64,000 nucleotides of DNA, taken from positions 307,522 through 371,521 of the forward strand of contig JAVDPC010000001.1 of NCBI GenBank assembly GCA_031296915.1. Direction: 5' to 3'. Positions 41,861 through 46,026 of the stretch are shown here, one piece after another. A program made the position numbers and the translations under genes. Origin of the DNA: Cerasicoccus frondis. GTDB lineage: Bacteria > Verrucomicrobiota > Verrucomicrobiia > Opitutales > Cerasicoccaceae. Under the pieces are notes generated by a model. The model was not told where the DNA came from and made no database searches. It saw only the letters and a list, made by a program, of their open reading frames with translations. Numbering within the stretch: position 1 is the stretch's first letter; each line of letters opens with the position of its first letter.

Positions 41861-42424
41861 ATGAAGCACTTTCCCGAATCCCTGATCCTTGAGTCGCGCC
41901 GTTGTCGCTACCGCATCCCTACACTGGACGACCGGCGCCACACTATTTCGGCAGCGCAGTATCCGGGCTTCACCGACGGCATGCTTTGGGAGCCTCCCAA
42001 GCATGCGGATGAGCTGCTGCCGATCTTTGAAAGCATGCGCGCCGCATGGGTAAGCGGCGAGGCGTTCTGCTTCTCAATCATTGACTCCTCGGATGACGGC
42101 TTTATCGGCCGAATCGCCATTCGGCGTGAAGCAACCCCCGAAGTTTGGAACCTGGGTTTCTGGACGCACCCAGAAAGACAGAATCGGGGCTACATGACCG
42201 AGGCCGCCGCGCGGCTGATCGCATTCGGGTTTCTGGAACTCGACGCCCGTGACATCATCGCCCGCCACGCGCTCTGGAATAAAGCCAGCGAAGCCGTCAT
42301 GCGCAAAAACGGCATGTCATTCCGGCAATACCTGCCACAGGGCTTCCAAAAGCGCGGCCAGTGGGTCGAGGAGAACGAACTCGGCATTACGCGGGAAAGC
42401 TGGTTGGCGAATCGCCAAAAATAG
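41861..42424 (+). CDS. GNAT-family acetyltransferase (RimJ/RimL-like)
   Basis: A 187-residue N-acetyltransferase. The acetyl-CoA site is in the middle: NLGFWTHPERQNRGYMTEAA, matching the Q/RxxGxG/A-type pyrophosphate loop, preceded by FIGRIAIRREA and followed by LDARDIIARHALWNKASEAV and MRKNGMSFRQYL. This is the ribosomal-protein acetyltransferase subgroup (RimJ/RimL). Target not predicted; acetylation of protein N-termini or small amines are the options. It ends 23 bp before recD2; its first codons follow the dxs terminator, so it should have its own promoter. Confidence 0.9.
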   Translation: MKHFPESLILESRRCRYRIPTLDDRRHTISAAQYPGFTDGMLWEPPKHADELLPIFESMRAAWVSGEAFCFSIIDSSDDGFIGRIAIRREATPEVWNLGFWTHPERQNRGYMTEAAARLIAFGFLELDARDIIARHALWNKASEAVMRKNGMSFRQYLPQGFQKRGQWVEENELGITRESWLANRQK

Positions 42425-42447
42425 TTTTCAGTGCGTGTTTCAACTTC

Positions 42448-44652
42448 ATGGCAGATACCCTCACAGGCGTTCTTGATCGCATCGTTTTCCACAACGAGGA
42501 GAACCACTTCACCATTGGCGAAGTGAAGGCCAGCGACCACCGTGGCCCCATCACCGTGCTGGGCAATCTCCCCGGCGTGCAGTGTGGTGAAACGCTCAAG
42601 CTGACGGGAGACTGGACCACCCATGCAACCCACGGTAAACAGTTCAAGATCAAGGAGTTCACCTCGCAACTCCCGGCCTCGGTTTATGGCATCGAGAAAT
42701 ACTTGGGCAGCGGGCAAATCCCCAAAGTCGGTCCGAAGTTCGCCAAGAAAATCGTCGCCAAGTTCGGCGCGGACACGCTGCGCGTCATTTCGGAAGAGTC
42801 TGGCCGCCTGCGTGAGATACCTGGCGTTGGCCCCAAGCGCGCCAAGGAAATCAAAAAAGCCTGGGACGAGCAGGCCGCGCTCCGAGATGTCATGACTTTT
42901 TTGCAGACCTATGGCGTGGGAACCAATCTCTGTCTGCGGCTGATCCGCCAGTATGGCAACGCCGCCAAGACCATTCTGCAAAACGAGCCCTACCGGGTCG
43001 CCCGCGAGGTGCCCGGCATTGGCTTTAAGACCGCCGACCGCATTGCCGTGAACCTGGGCTACTCGAACGAGAGTCCGCAGCGCATCGACGCCGGGCTGCT
43101 GTTCGCCCTGCAGGAACTGGAGGTCGACGGCCACACGGGCTATCCCGTTTCCGATCTGGTCAAGAAGGCCTCCGAGATGCTGGACGTCGTTGAGGACTTG
43201 ATCTCGCCGCGCGTCAAGGCGCTGACCGAAAACTCGCATCTGGTCGCGACCGAGGGCATCGATGGCGAAGCGTTCATTCAGCTCCCCGCGCTGCGCCGTT
43301 CGGAGGTGGCCATTGCGCAGGTCATCGCTGACCTAGCTGAAGCCCAATCCGCCCTCCCCCCCATCATCATCGACAAAGCCGTCGACTGGGCGCAGGACAA
43401 GGCAGGCTTCAAATTTGCGCCGGAACAGGCTGATGCCGTTCGCGCGGGCCTGCGCTGCAAGGTCAGTATCCTCACCGGCGGTCCGGGCACTGGTAAAACC
43501 ACTATCCTGCGCGCGTTGGTGGAAATCCTGAAAGCCAAGAAAGTTCGCCTGACCCTGGCGGCGCCCACTGGTCGCGCCGCCCAGCGCATGTCCGAAAGCA
43601 CGGGCGCGTTTGCGATGACCATTCACCGACTCCTGAAGTTTGACCACGAGGCGGGCGGCTTTCTCCACACCGACGATAACAAGCTGAAAACGGAGTTCAT
43701 GATCGTCGATGAAAGCTCGATGCTGGACTCGCGGCTGGCCTCGTCACTCTTGCGCGCCCTGCCCGACTCCGCGCATTTGCTGCTTGTGGGCGACATCCAT
43801 CAGTTGCCATCAGTGGGCGCCGGCGCAGTGCTCAGCGACATCATTCAGTTCATCGAGGCCAAACCGCACCAACACATGGCCGTCACCCGACTGGAGAAAA
43901 TCTTCCGCCAAGGTGCGCGCTCGGCCATCGTCGCCACTGCGCACGCAATCCTGCAAGGGCGCGCCGGAGCCCCGTTTGTGGTCAACCAAGTGAAGGATAT
44001 CGACCCCAAGCAAGACCTGCATTTCCTAGCGACCGAAGACCCCGAAGATGCGGTCAAGCAAGTCACCGCGCTGATCCAGCATTACCTGCCACGCTGGTTT
44101 GACTGGGCCGACAAGTTCATGGACATCCAGGTCCTCGCGCCCATGCACAAAGGCGCGGGCGGCGTTGGCCGCATGAACGAGGAGCTGCCGAATACGCTCA
44201 ATGCGCAAAGCCGCGGCATCGTCTACGGCGCCACCAAATATCGGGTCGGCGACAAGGTCATTCAGACCCGCAATAACTACGAAAAAGGCGTCTTCAATGG
44301 CGACCTCGGTCGCGTCAGCGCAGTCAACGCCGAGGCGGGCACCGTGGCGGTAAATTTCGAAGGCAACGAAATCGATTACGAGCGCCCCGAGCTGCTCGAC
44401 TTGTCCCTCGCCTACGCCATCACCATTCACAAGAGCCAGGGCAGTGAATTCCCGATCGTGATCATCCCACTGCTGAAACAGCACTTCGTCATGTTGCAGC
44501 GCAACCTGCTCTACACAGCAATCACCCGTGGACGGCGCAAGGTATTCATCGTCGGCGATCCAACGGCTTACGCCATGGCCGTGCGCAATGTGGACTCCCT
44601 CCGCCGCCTGACTGGTCTCGGCCAGCGCCTGAGCGACGTATTTGCCGGTTAA
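42448..44652 (+). CDS. recD2: RecD2-type 5'-3' DNA helicase
   Basis: The ATG at 42448 is chosen; the upstream codons read back into the GNAT gene. The product is 734 residues, usual for RecD2. The N-terminal ~300 residues contain helix-hairpin-helix segments (IPGVGPKRAKEIKKAWDEQA, VPGIGFKTADRIAVNLGY) typical of RecD2 rather than RecBCD RecD. SF1 motifs: GGPGTGKTT (Walker A, ~344), VDESSMLD (~429), GDIHQLPSVGAGAVL, LEKIFRQGARS and YAITIHKSQGSEFPIVIIPL. It unwinds DNA 5'-3' and works without RecBC. It ends just before the 23-bp repeat array. Confidence 0.94.
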   Translation: MADTLTGVLDRIVFHNEENHFTIGEVKASDHRGPITVLGNLPGVQCGETLKLTGDWTTHATHGKQFKIKEFTSQLPASVYGIEKYLGSGQIPKVGPKFAKKIVAKFGADTLRVISEESGRLREIPGVGPKRAKEIKKAWDEQAALRDVMTFLQTYGVGTNLCLRLIRQYGNAAKTILQNEPYRVAREVPGIGFKTADRIAVNLGYSNESPQRIDAGLLFALQELEVDGHTGYPVSDLVKKASEMLDVVEDLISPRVKALTENSHLVATEGIDGEAFIQLPALRRSEVAIAQVIADLAEAQSALPPIIIDKAVDWAQDKAGFKFAPEQADAVRAGLRCKVSILTGGPGTGKTTILRALVEILKAKKVRLTLAAPTGRAAQRMSESTGAFAMTIHRLLKFDHEAGGFLHTDDNKLKTEFMIVDESSMLDSRLASSLLRALPDSAHLLLVGDIHQLPSVGAGAVLSDIIQFIEAKPHQHMAVTRLEKIFRQGARSAIVATAHAILQGRAGAPFVVNQVKDIDPKQDLHFLATEDPEDAVKQVTALIQHYLPRWFDWADKFMDIQVLAPMHKGAGGVGRMNEELPNTLNAQSRGIVYGATKYRVGDKVIQTRNNYEKGVFNGDLGRVSAVNAEAGTVAVNFEGNEIDYERPELLDLSLAYAITIHKSQGSEFPIVIIPLLKQHFVMLQRNLLYTAITRGRRKVFIVGDPTAYAMAVRNVDSLRRLTGLGQRLSDVFAG

Positions 44653-44670
44653 GGACACGGGCATTCGCGG

Positions 44671-44900
44671 AACCACCAGTCTTATCGCAACACAACCCAC
44701 TGGGGCAATTCAACGCAATGCCCTTGAGGATTGTGCCGCAAAACACCAGTGGGTTCTGACACAAAACACTGATTGGTTGCGGCGAAAAACACTGGGGCAT
44801 TCTGTCGGAAAACACCAGTGGGTTGCGTCAGTTTCCCCATGGGCATTTTGACAGAAAACACTAGTGGTTTTTAACGTAAAACACCTAAGGGTTGGAGCGA
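44671..44900. repeat. Degenerate tandem array, exact 23-bp period, ten units
   Basis: Ten consecutive units begin at 44671, 44694, 44717, 44740, 44763, 44786, 44809, 44832, 44855 and 44878, each exactly 23 bp. The best-matching units (44740, 44809) read AAAACACCAGTGGGTT followed by seven less conserved bases; units at 44763, 44786, 44855 and 44878 keep AAAACAC. The core CAC-NN-GTG is a small dyad (CACCAGTG, CACTAGTG). Units at 44717 and 44832 are most diverged. Spacing has stayed exact while sequence drifted. It starts 19 bp after the recD2 stop and lies upstream (3' side) of hemB. The 23-bp period excludes a coding repeat. It has no CRISPR spacers. Function unknown. Confidence 0.8.
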
Positions 44901-45015
44901 AAAGGTAAATCTGATCTAATCATCTGGGCGTATAGCCCCTCCTACAACTTCTTTTTATGCCGCGATACTCAGCGCCCAAAAGAGGGGGCGAGACACCCAA
45001 GCACTTTTGGACCAG
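44901..45015. other. Intergenic tail between the repeat array and hemB
   Basis: No gene or clear hairpin seen in this ~115-bp stretch, which separates the array from the convergent hemB stop. Confidence 0.4.
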
Positions 45016-46026
45016 CTACTTCCGAAGCGCCAATTCCTTGGCAAAGTAGGTCAAAATCATGTCGGCCCCGGCGCGCTTGATCGCCAGCAGGCTTTCGTCG
45101 CGGGTGCGCTCATAGTCGAGCCAGCCCAATTGAGCCGCCGCATGGATTTGCGAGTACTCGCCGCTCACCTGATACGCCGCCACGGGCAAGGACGTGCGGT
45201 TGCGCAGTTCACGGATAATGTCCAAATATGGCCCACCAGGCTTCACCATCAACACGTCAGCGCCTTCCATTTCGTCGAGCTCGGTTTCGATGATCGCGCT
45301 GCGGCGGTTCGCGGGATCGCATTGGTAAGTGTGCTTGCCCAGCAGATTCGTCCCGGCGGCCTTGGCGCTGCCCACGGCATCACGGAATGGTCCGTAGTAG
45401 GCGGAGTTGAACTTGGCCGAATACGCCATGATCGCCGTGTTGCTGAGGCCCGCATCGTCGAGGGCGACACGGATGGCCCCCACCCGGCCGTCCATCATGT
45501 CCGACGGCGCCACGAAATCTGCGCCGGCCTCAGCGTTGAGCTTAGCCATTTCGCAAAGAATTTCCACGGTGGCGTCGTTCGCAACGTCCTGCCCATCAGC
45601 GGTCAGCACGCCATCGTGGCCGTGGCTCGTGTAGGGGTCGAGTGCAACATCGGTAATGATCGCCAGCTCCGGCGCTGCGGCCTTGACTGCGCGCACCGCC
45701 CGCAGGACCAGCGTCTCGGGATTGAGCGCTTCCTTGCCATCAGCGGTCTTAAGAGACGAGTCCAGCTTCGGGAAGACCGCCACCGCTGGAATGCCGGCAT
45801 CGCGCAAAGCCAGGCACTCGTCGACCAGCGCTTTAATCGTCAACCGTGACTGCCCCGGCATCGACTCAATCGGCTCAACCACACCGTCGCCATCGATCAC
45901 GAACAGCGGCTGGATCAGGTCGTCGACGCGCACTTCGGTCTCACGCACGAGGCGGCGAATGGCGTCCGTGCGGCGCAAACGTCGTGGGCGATAGGTCAAA
46001 TTGAGTCTGGGTTCGGAGTCACTCAT
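45016..46026 (-). CDS. hemB: Porphobilinogen synthase (delta-aminolevulinate dehydratase)
   Basis: A 336-residue cytosolic TIM-barrel enzyme, normal length. Motifs: DVALDPYTSHGHDG (metal site), PSDMMDGRVGAIR, AYSAKFNSAYYGPFRDA (first Schiff-base Lys) and MVKPGGPYLD (second, catalytic Lys). It condenses two 5-aminolevulinates to porphobilinogen for haem and other tetrapyrroles. The metal segment has Ala/Asp where zinc-type enzymes have Cys, so this is the Mg2+-responsive class. Minus-strand; convergent with recD2, the two separated by the 23-bp array. Confidence 0.96.
   Translation of the reverse strand: MSDSEPRLNLTYRPRRLRRTDAIRRLVRETEVRVDDLIQPLFVIDGDGVVEPIESMPGQSRLTIKALVDECLALRDAGIPAVAVFPKLDSSLKTADGKEALNPETLVLRAVRAVKAAAPELAIITDVALDPYTSHGHDGVLTADGQDVANDATVEILCEMAKLNAEAGADFVAPSDMMDGRVGAIRVALDDAGLSNTAIMAYSAKFNSAYYGPFRDAVGSAKAAGTNLLGKHTYQCDPANRRSAIIETELDEMEGADVLMVKPGGPYLDIIRELRNRTSLPVAAYQVSGEYSQIHAAAQLGWLDYERTRDESLLAIKRAGADMILTYFAKELALRK

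Follow-up and report, generated by a model that had tools for sequence, protein, structure and literature searches.

Dispersed intergenic arrays of dyad units on a 23-bp lattice in Cerasicoccus

Results

A ten-unit array between recD2-type and hemB-type genes

The window analysed here is a 64,000-nucleotide stretch of the Cerasicoccus frondis genome. In it, a recD2-type helicase ORF (42361..44652, + strand) and a hemB-type ORF (45016..46026, − strand), both named from an earlier sequence-only reading and by sight, are convergent and flank an array of ten 23-bp units at 44671..44900. The array was delimited by its lag-23 signal and by its match to the family described below. As a feature it is assigned to neither strand, and it scores best on the − strand of the family profile (101 and 158 bits). 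Its units start at 44671, 44694, 44717, 44740, 44763, 44786, 44809, 44832, 44855 and 44878, and at least five of the six bases of the anchor pattern AA....C..G....TT are found in 8 of the 10 units, the exceptions being those at 44671 and 44832. Units of opposite orientation occur within the array, as seen in an inverted pair of 13 nt with 92% complementarity (44691-44703 and 44746-44758; span 44691..44758, no strand assigned).

The ten consecutive units with exact 23-bp spacing proposed in the sequence-only reading were confirmed by self-comparison. In a 140-bp window, the self-match at lag 23 reached a z-score of 8.7; the top lag overall was 46 (z 9.7). The control that had been suggested, 200 dinucleotide-preserving shuffles of 44301-45300, never exceeded 3.7 at lag 23 or 5.5 at any lag from 14 to 60. 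Across the 64-kb window this is the sole place with a signal at both lags 23 and 46 (z of at least 5). Tandem Repeats Finder, the other proposed check, did not report the array at a minimum score of 30 because its units are too diverged, while a repeat search within it returned spacings of 23 and 46. A further partial unit suspected at about 44654 is weak: the closest anchor match, at 44650, misses the lattice by 2 bp and overlaps the recD2 stop codon. Stops occur in all six frames of 44671-44900 (1 to 4 in each), which bears out the claim that the array is non-coding and rules out a coding repeat for this copy. A part in termination or promotion was also rejected, as there is no promoter-like site and the one terminator-like site (44986-44998, with 0.8 expected) lies outside the array.

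The array belongs to a dispersed family

The genome of origin, that of a marine bacterium (G000; 5.8 Mb in 69 contigs), contains eight full-length copies of the element with 199-228 bp matched, the recD2-hemB array being one of them. A search for AAAACACCAGTGGGTT with at most two mismatches gave 33 matches, 28 of them in eight clusters, and 4 matches for the reversed pattern. BLASTN with a single copy as query recovered the eight elements at 72-100% identity among 25 matches (E of at most 1); the matches outside these elements include a separate 54-bp piece on contig C2. Identity between copies ranges from 68 to 93%. When the copies are aligned, the order of units is largely common, most clearly in the seven copies other than that of the window: AACCCAC..GTGTTTT, AATGCCC..GTGTTTT and AACCAAC..GTGTTTT are typically followed by the turned units AAAACAC..AAGGGTT and AAAACAC..GTGGGTT. 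Divergence is greatest in the window copy, whose identity to the others is 68-79% and whose second half departs from the common order. Ends are ragged, with no sharp boundary common to the copies. Flanking genes are convergent at the window locus, divergent at L011 and L012, and codirectional at L010 and L014, a variety that also counts against a part in termination or promotion. A plasmid element was ruled out, as the plasmid collection held no match. Our literature search, whose coverage excluded most subscription papers, found no paper on these arrays.

Several other features border individual copies. Just beside L015 lies a CRISPR-like array with a period of about 66 bp, accompanied by cas2- and cas1-like ORFs named by sight (L015 3398-4288 and 4320-6001); in Cerasicoccus maritimus a CRISPR-like array adjoins the same gene without the 23-bp element. 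At L009 the array lies between rpsA and a fragment (2756-2955) similar to the 3' portion of that gene, an arrangement that would result if an rpsA end had been duplicated around the array. A palindrome of the GGAGCCCGGTGTCCCTACCGGGCT type borders two copies (L010 2955-2980 and L013 3400-3425) and is probably a classical REP-like repeat.

Orthologous and empty loci in related genomes

The related-genome search called for by the sequence-only reading placed the family in 2 of 36 genomes by BLASTN, G000 and G003, which we take to be C. maritimus (lineage Verrucomicrobiota, Opitutia, Puniceicoccales). An exact-pattern scan of a contig collection, which may omit the genome of origin and those near it, gave 11 stretches. 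Three are arrays in C. maritimus NBRC 105382, and the remaining eight carry the pattern without an array and were taken as chance, as was a single viral-contig stretch with no array.

In C. maritimus, the orthologues of four of the eight C. frondis loci hold an array or a remnant. L010 pairs with L058 and L014 with L103; L009 corresponds to L097, a fragment beside rpsA, and L011 to L109, which retains about three units. L097, L109 and L110 are short remnants of the family. At L012, L015 and the window locus, the neighbouring gene is present in C. maritimus with no array in the stretch examined, and no orthologous neighbour of L013 was found there. Orthologous copies are no closer to each other than paralogues. 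These four loci common to two species make the family older than the recent slow decay that had been offered as one explanation.

At the recD2-hemB gap itself, C. maritimus keeps the two genes convergent with about 2 kb separating them, and no profile hit falls in between. In the congener G001 they are likewise convergent, with an array-free 229 bp between the matches against 395 bp in C. frondis; in G002 they are on different contigs. A purely local recD2-hemB array is thus unsupported, as the family is dispersed and the same gap is array-free in two congeners. The G001 gap (L094) has an inverted or palindromic repeat of its own, of the GGAGTGCGGCAGCCCTCTGCCGC type. The UGPase-side gap between matches is 121-146 bp in G000, G001 and G002 and at least 640 bp in C. 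maritimus, where the array accounts for only about 240 bp.

Register and dyad positions are constrained

We compared substitutions and indels in four pairs without a common member, chosen by us among 11 copies of the family (L009/L011, L014/L015, L010/L058 and L012 with the window copy). Over whole arrays and with default gap costs, we counted 162 substitutions in these pairs and four indels: two are exactly 23 bp long, and two are small (2 bp and 1 bp) and lie no more than about 25 bp from an array end. Noncoding controls between C. frondis and C. maritimus, comprising only three alignments, one of them the duplicated rpsA fragment against the rpsA region, gave 118 substitutions and 11 indels. 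Non-unit indels are accordingly rarer relative to substitutions in the arrays (Fisher 0.003), which supports the proposal of selection on spacing. A further control of 42 bp, with 4 substitutions and no indels, stands outside this count; including it gave Fisher 0.004, and adding it while dropping the rpsA fragment gave 0.007. The inner lattice of the same four pairs aligned at one offset without gaps. Such trimmed arrays show 150 substitutions and 0 indels (Fisher 1.6e-4), and we prefer the whole-array test; end steps that are not 23 bp (21 in L009, 24 in L012 and L015) fall outside the inner-lattice test. Against a strictly kept register stand these end steps, a 1-bp gap in another copy pair beyond the four, and the local alignment of all 55 pairs, which are non-independent: with cheap gap extension it gave 107 gaps in 2140 mismatches, only 28 of the gaps netting multiples of 23.

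Across 106 units of 11 copies, the dyad pattern AA..CAC..GTG..TT recurs, and the least substituted phases, ranked from the 47 of 55 copy pairs with more than 70% ungapped identity, are 1, 2, 7, 10, 12, 15 and 21. All except 21 are symmetric about a centre between 8 and 9: A1-A2 pair with T15-T16, C7 with G10, and G12 with position 5. When phases were defined from L013 alone, 31 of the 150 substitutions in the four pairs fell in them against 59.2 expected (p 7e-7), a test that is not fully independent because L013 shares ancestry with the tested pairs. Phases chosen from overlapping data gave 17 of 150 against 46.5 expected, and for that reason we rely on the L013-based test. The CAC-NN-GTG dyad earlier suggested as a protein-binding core thus holds up as a constrained site. 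C21, together with G19, flanks a second dyad centre 11.5 bp away. The argument that sites 23 bp apart would rotate around the helix loses some force with dyad centres recurring every 11.5 bp, though the second centre follows from periodicity and one dyad.

The same design occurs in other letters

We searched 10 genomes of the bacterial family with a sequence-only model of the 11 copies, scoring up to 150 candidates in each. Among the candidates scored, 4 of the 10 genomes were matched, all of this genus. G001 gave 16 matches (E 1e-6 to 0.008), nine of which were inspected. Eight of these form one dispersed family of different sequence with a 23-bp period, a common order and units like AACAACAGTGGCTGTGTTGGGGA; the ninth (L115) is of another type. 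Seven of the eight aligned G001 copies (L118, L122, L125, L128, L134, L137 and L139) have in common an extra left end near CCAACCGAAGCAACTGAGCCAAAATA. In G002, also of this genus, one 70-bp match was found.

A lag scan was run on 400-kb samples of six genomes (G000, G001, G002, G004, G006 and G013), in which periods in multiples of three were taken as coding as a rule rather than case by case. Arrays of period 21-23 numbered four in G000, four in G001, two in G004 (both 22) and four in G006 (all 21, with L250 apparently coding and L261 almost free of stops), and the samples of G002 and G013 showed none. The 21- and 22-bp arrays of G004 and G006 thus come from other genera. A 22-bp-period family with GTCGGCGACGCTT-type dyads was found in two species (L233 12118-12305 and L236 5253-5422 in G000; L155 2227-2419 in G001). 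Five arrays in 464 kb of the C. frondis genome extrapolate to some 60 per genome.

Folding does not depend on unit order

We considered whether one long imperfect hairpin, of structured RNA or DNA, is the selected feature. Fold energies against dinucleotide shuffles are strong for some copies, with z-scores of −9.4 and −9.8 for L015, −3.0 and −4.7 for the window copy, and −3.8 for L010. However, fold energy was independent of unit order: among 18 arrays with 60 permutations per kind, no z-score fell below −1.9 on either strand and some exceeded +1. The RNAalifold covariation term was unfavourable (+1.54), with some change on both sides in 4 of 39 pairs, and a single central hairpin axis hardly outperformed the axes next to it. 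A search of Rfam with 44550-45100 of the window matched no family; for ten other loci it gave one match, below cut-off and beside the array. Neither a conserved fold with covariation nor a known RNA family was thus found, and the order-independence and lack of covariation led us to reject an ordered RNA hairpin as the best explanation despite the shuffle z-scores.

Discussion

The arrays form a dispersed family with a largely common unit order in which dyad positions are protected from substitution, and gain or loss of whole units separates copies much more often than a register shift does. The reading we favour, while holding it tentatively, is that the recD2-hemB array is a BIME-like interspersed non-coding element, selected for register, in which some ten degenerate dyad sites adjoin one another at a fixed pitch of 23 bp, the units being putative sites of a dimeric protein. 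A dyad with contact-like conserved phases and a kept register is what an array of protein-binding sites would display, and both were found here. The ragged ends of the copies and the G002 sample, which showed no 21-23-bp array, speak against this reading. The combination of register and dyad constraint with no order-dependent fold and no covariation points to double-stranded DNA that would be read by such a protein. Each unit may bind one dimer, with dimers side by side along the lattice; letters between the contacts could then drift, and a register shift would not be tolerated. Copies may have spread by a BIME-like process. The bound row would act on the DNA itself, either as a nucleoid or insulator-like structure or as the substrate of a copying protein. 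Site sequence would turn over between species while the lattice stays.

A less likely but possible alternative is that a RAYT (TnpA-REP, a Y1 transposase) produced the array as a REP/BIME-type cluster and dispersed it, in which case the spacing would come from the copying mechanism and carry no host function. BIMEs and REP clusters with a RAYT are the closest known kind (PMC2817692, PMC3733652, PMC8266576): they too are short palindromic units at regular spacing, in both orientations, dispersed between genes and species-specific, often near rayt genes (PMC2817692), and GTAG repeats are reported from the verrucomicrobium Opitutus terrae (PMC3733652). Regularly spaced palindromic units that are dispersed and occur in both orientations were found here, at a low copy number of eight full copies and fragments. 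PF01797 matches occur in 6 of the 10 genomes of the family, and of 25 PF01797 loci, five (L200, L201, L202, L205 and L206) have an array of period 17-23 no more than 1.5 kb away. The expectation is 0.70 (Poisson 8e-4), based on the 14 arrays found across 1.6 Mb in four genomes, a background that covers four of the six PF01797-bearing genomes, with G003 and G009 outside it, and that includes the coding-looking L250 while leaving out hits at lags of at least 24 and a G002 hit at lags 18 and 39 (L181). The count at RAYT loci likewise leaves out L224 (periods 48 and 35) and a period-30 hit in L201. The array at L200 is a member of the 23-bp family dispersed in G001. We regard this link of arrays to RAYT genes as suggestive. 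As for the arrays themselves, L201 has a 17-bp-period array at 1012-1228 beside a RAYT gene, and L224 a 48-bp tandem array at 903-1373 beside a Y1-transposase match in G001.

Against an origin by RAYT, the profile of the window family gave no hit at E of at most 1 within 1.5 kb on either side of the 25 PF01797 loci, including three of its own genome, and so no cognate RAYT flanked by the same units. GTAG or CTAC occurs once in the 11 copies, leaving 10 without a GTAG tag; CGTC or GACG occurs 0-4 times per copy, never once per unit, and is absent from 5 of 11. Moreover, two of the arrays beside PF01797 are not dispersed (matches to L201 are confined to 2.6 kb of G000, C3:37005-39632, and L206 matches only itself), and those of L201, L202 and L206 lie in nearly stop-free frames and may be coding repeats. 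As the tag and cognate-RAYT tests failed, we did not file the element as a REP. Its contiguous 23-bp lattice of about ten degenerate units also sets it apart from BIMEs and REP clusters.

Other known systems resemble the array in part. Like MITE-like intergenic repeats, it is about 230 bp long, non-coding and dispersed, and a given locus may carry it in one species and lack it in a relative; unlike a MITE, its copies have no sharp common ends and vary in length by whole units. The one pair of filled and empty sites that was aligned showed no clean breakpoint. Iterons and plasmid centromere arrays are rows of protein sites at fixed pitch. The array may be analogous to them if its units are protein sites, and differs in having many chromosomal copies and no match in the plasmid collection. 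CRISPR arrays consist of near-identical repeats and unique spacers, whereas here degenerate units are contiguous with 7-bp gaps.

We consider it improbable that the array is a neutral relic, an old tandem array copied around and now merely decaying. The divergence among copies, with orthologues no closer than paralogues, and the short remnants would fit such a history. By contrast, register-breaking indels are few for the substitutions seen, substitution is phase-specific, and separate G001 families have the same period in other letters. A long hairpin as the selected feature is very improbable, as fold energy does not depend on unit order, covariation gave no support and no Rfam family matched the array.

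The preferred reading, a lattice of putative dimeric sites, could be extended to a lattice class in this bacterial family, a proposal that we put forward as a rather doubtful one. Pitch (21, 22 or 23 bp) would follow lineage and be held by selection, with site sequence changing from species to species. Such a pattern would arise if a putative oligomerising DNA-binding protein and the arrays chase each other; the arrays would then be a bacterial counterpart of fast-evolving centromere-type repeats. The arrays are a natural example of drifting letters on a preserved register, with one architecture realised in different sequences by sister species. Should the array be the product of a RAYT, BIMEs would gain a new form. 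Should the lattice be read by a protein, one could test, in a little-studied phylum, how a DNA-binding protein and its dispersed sites evolve together.
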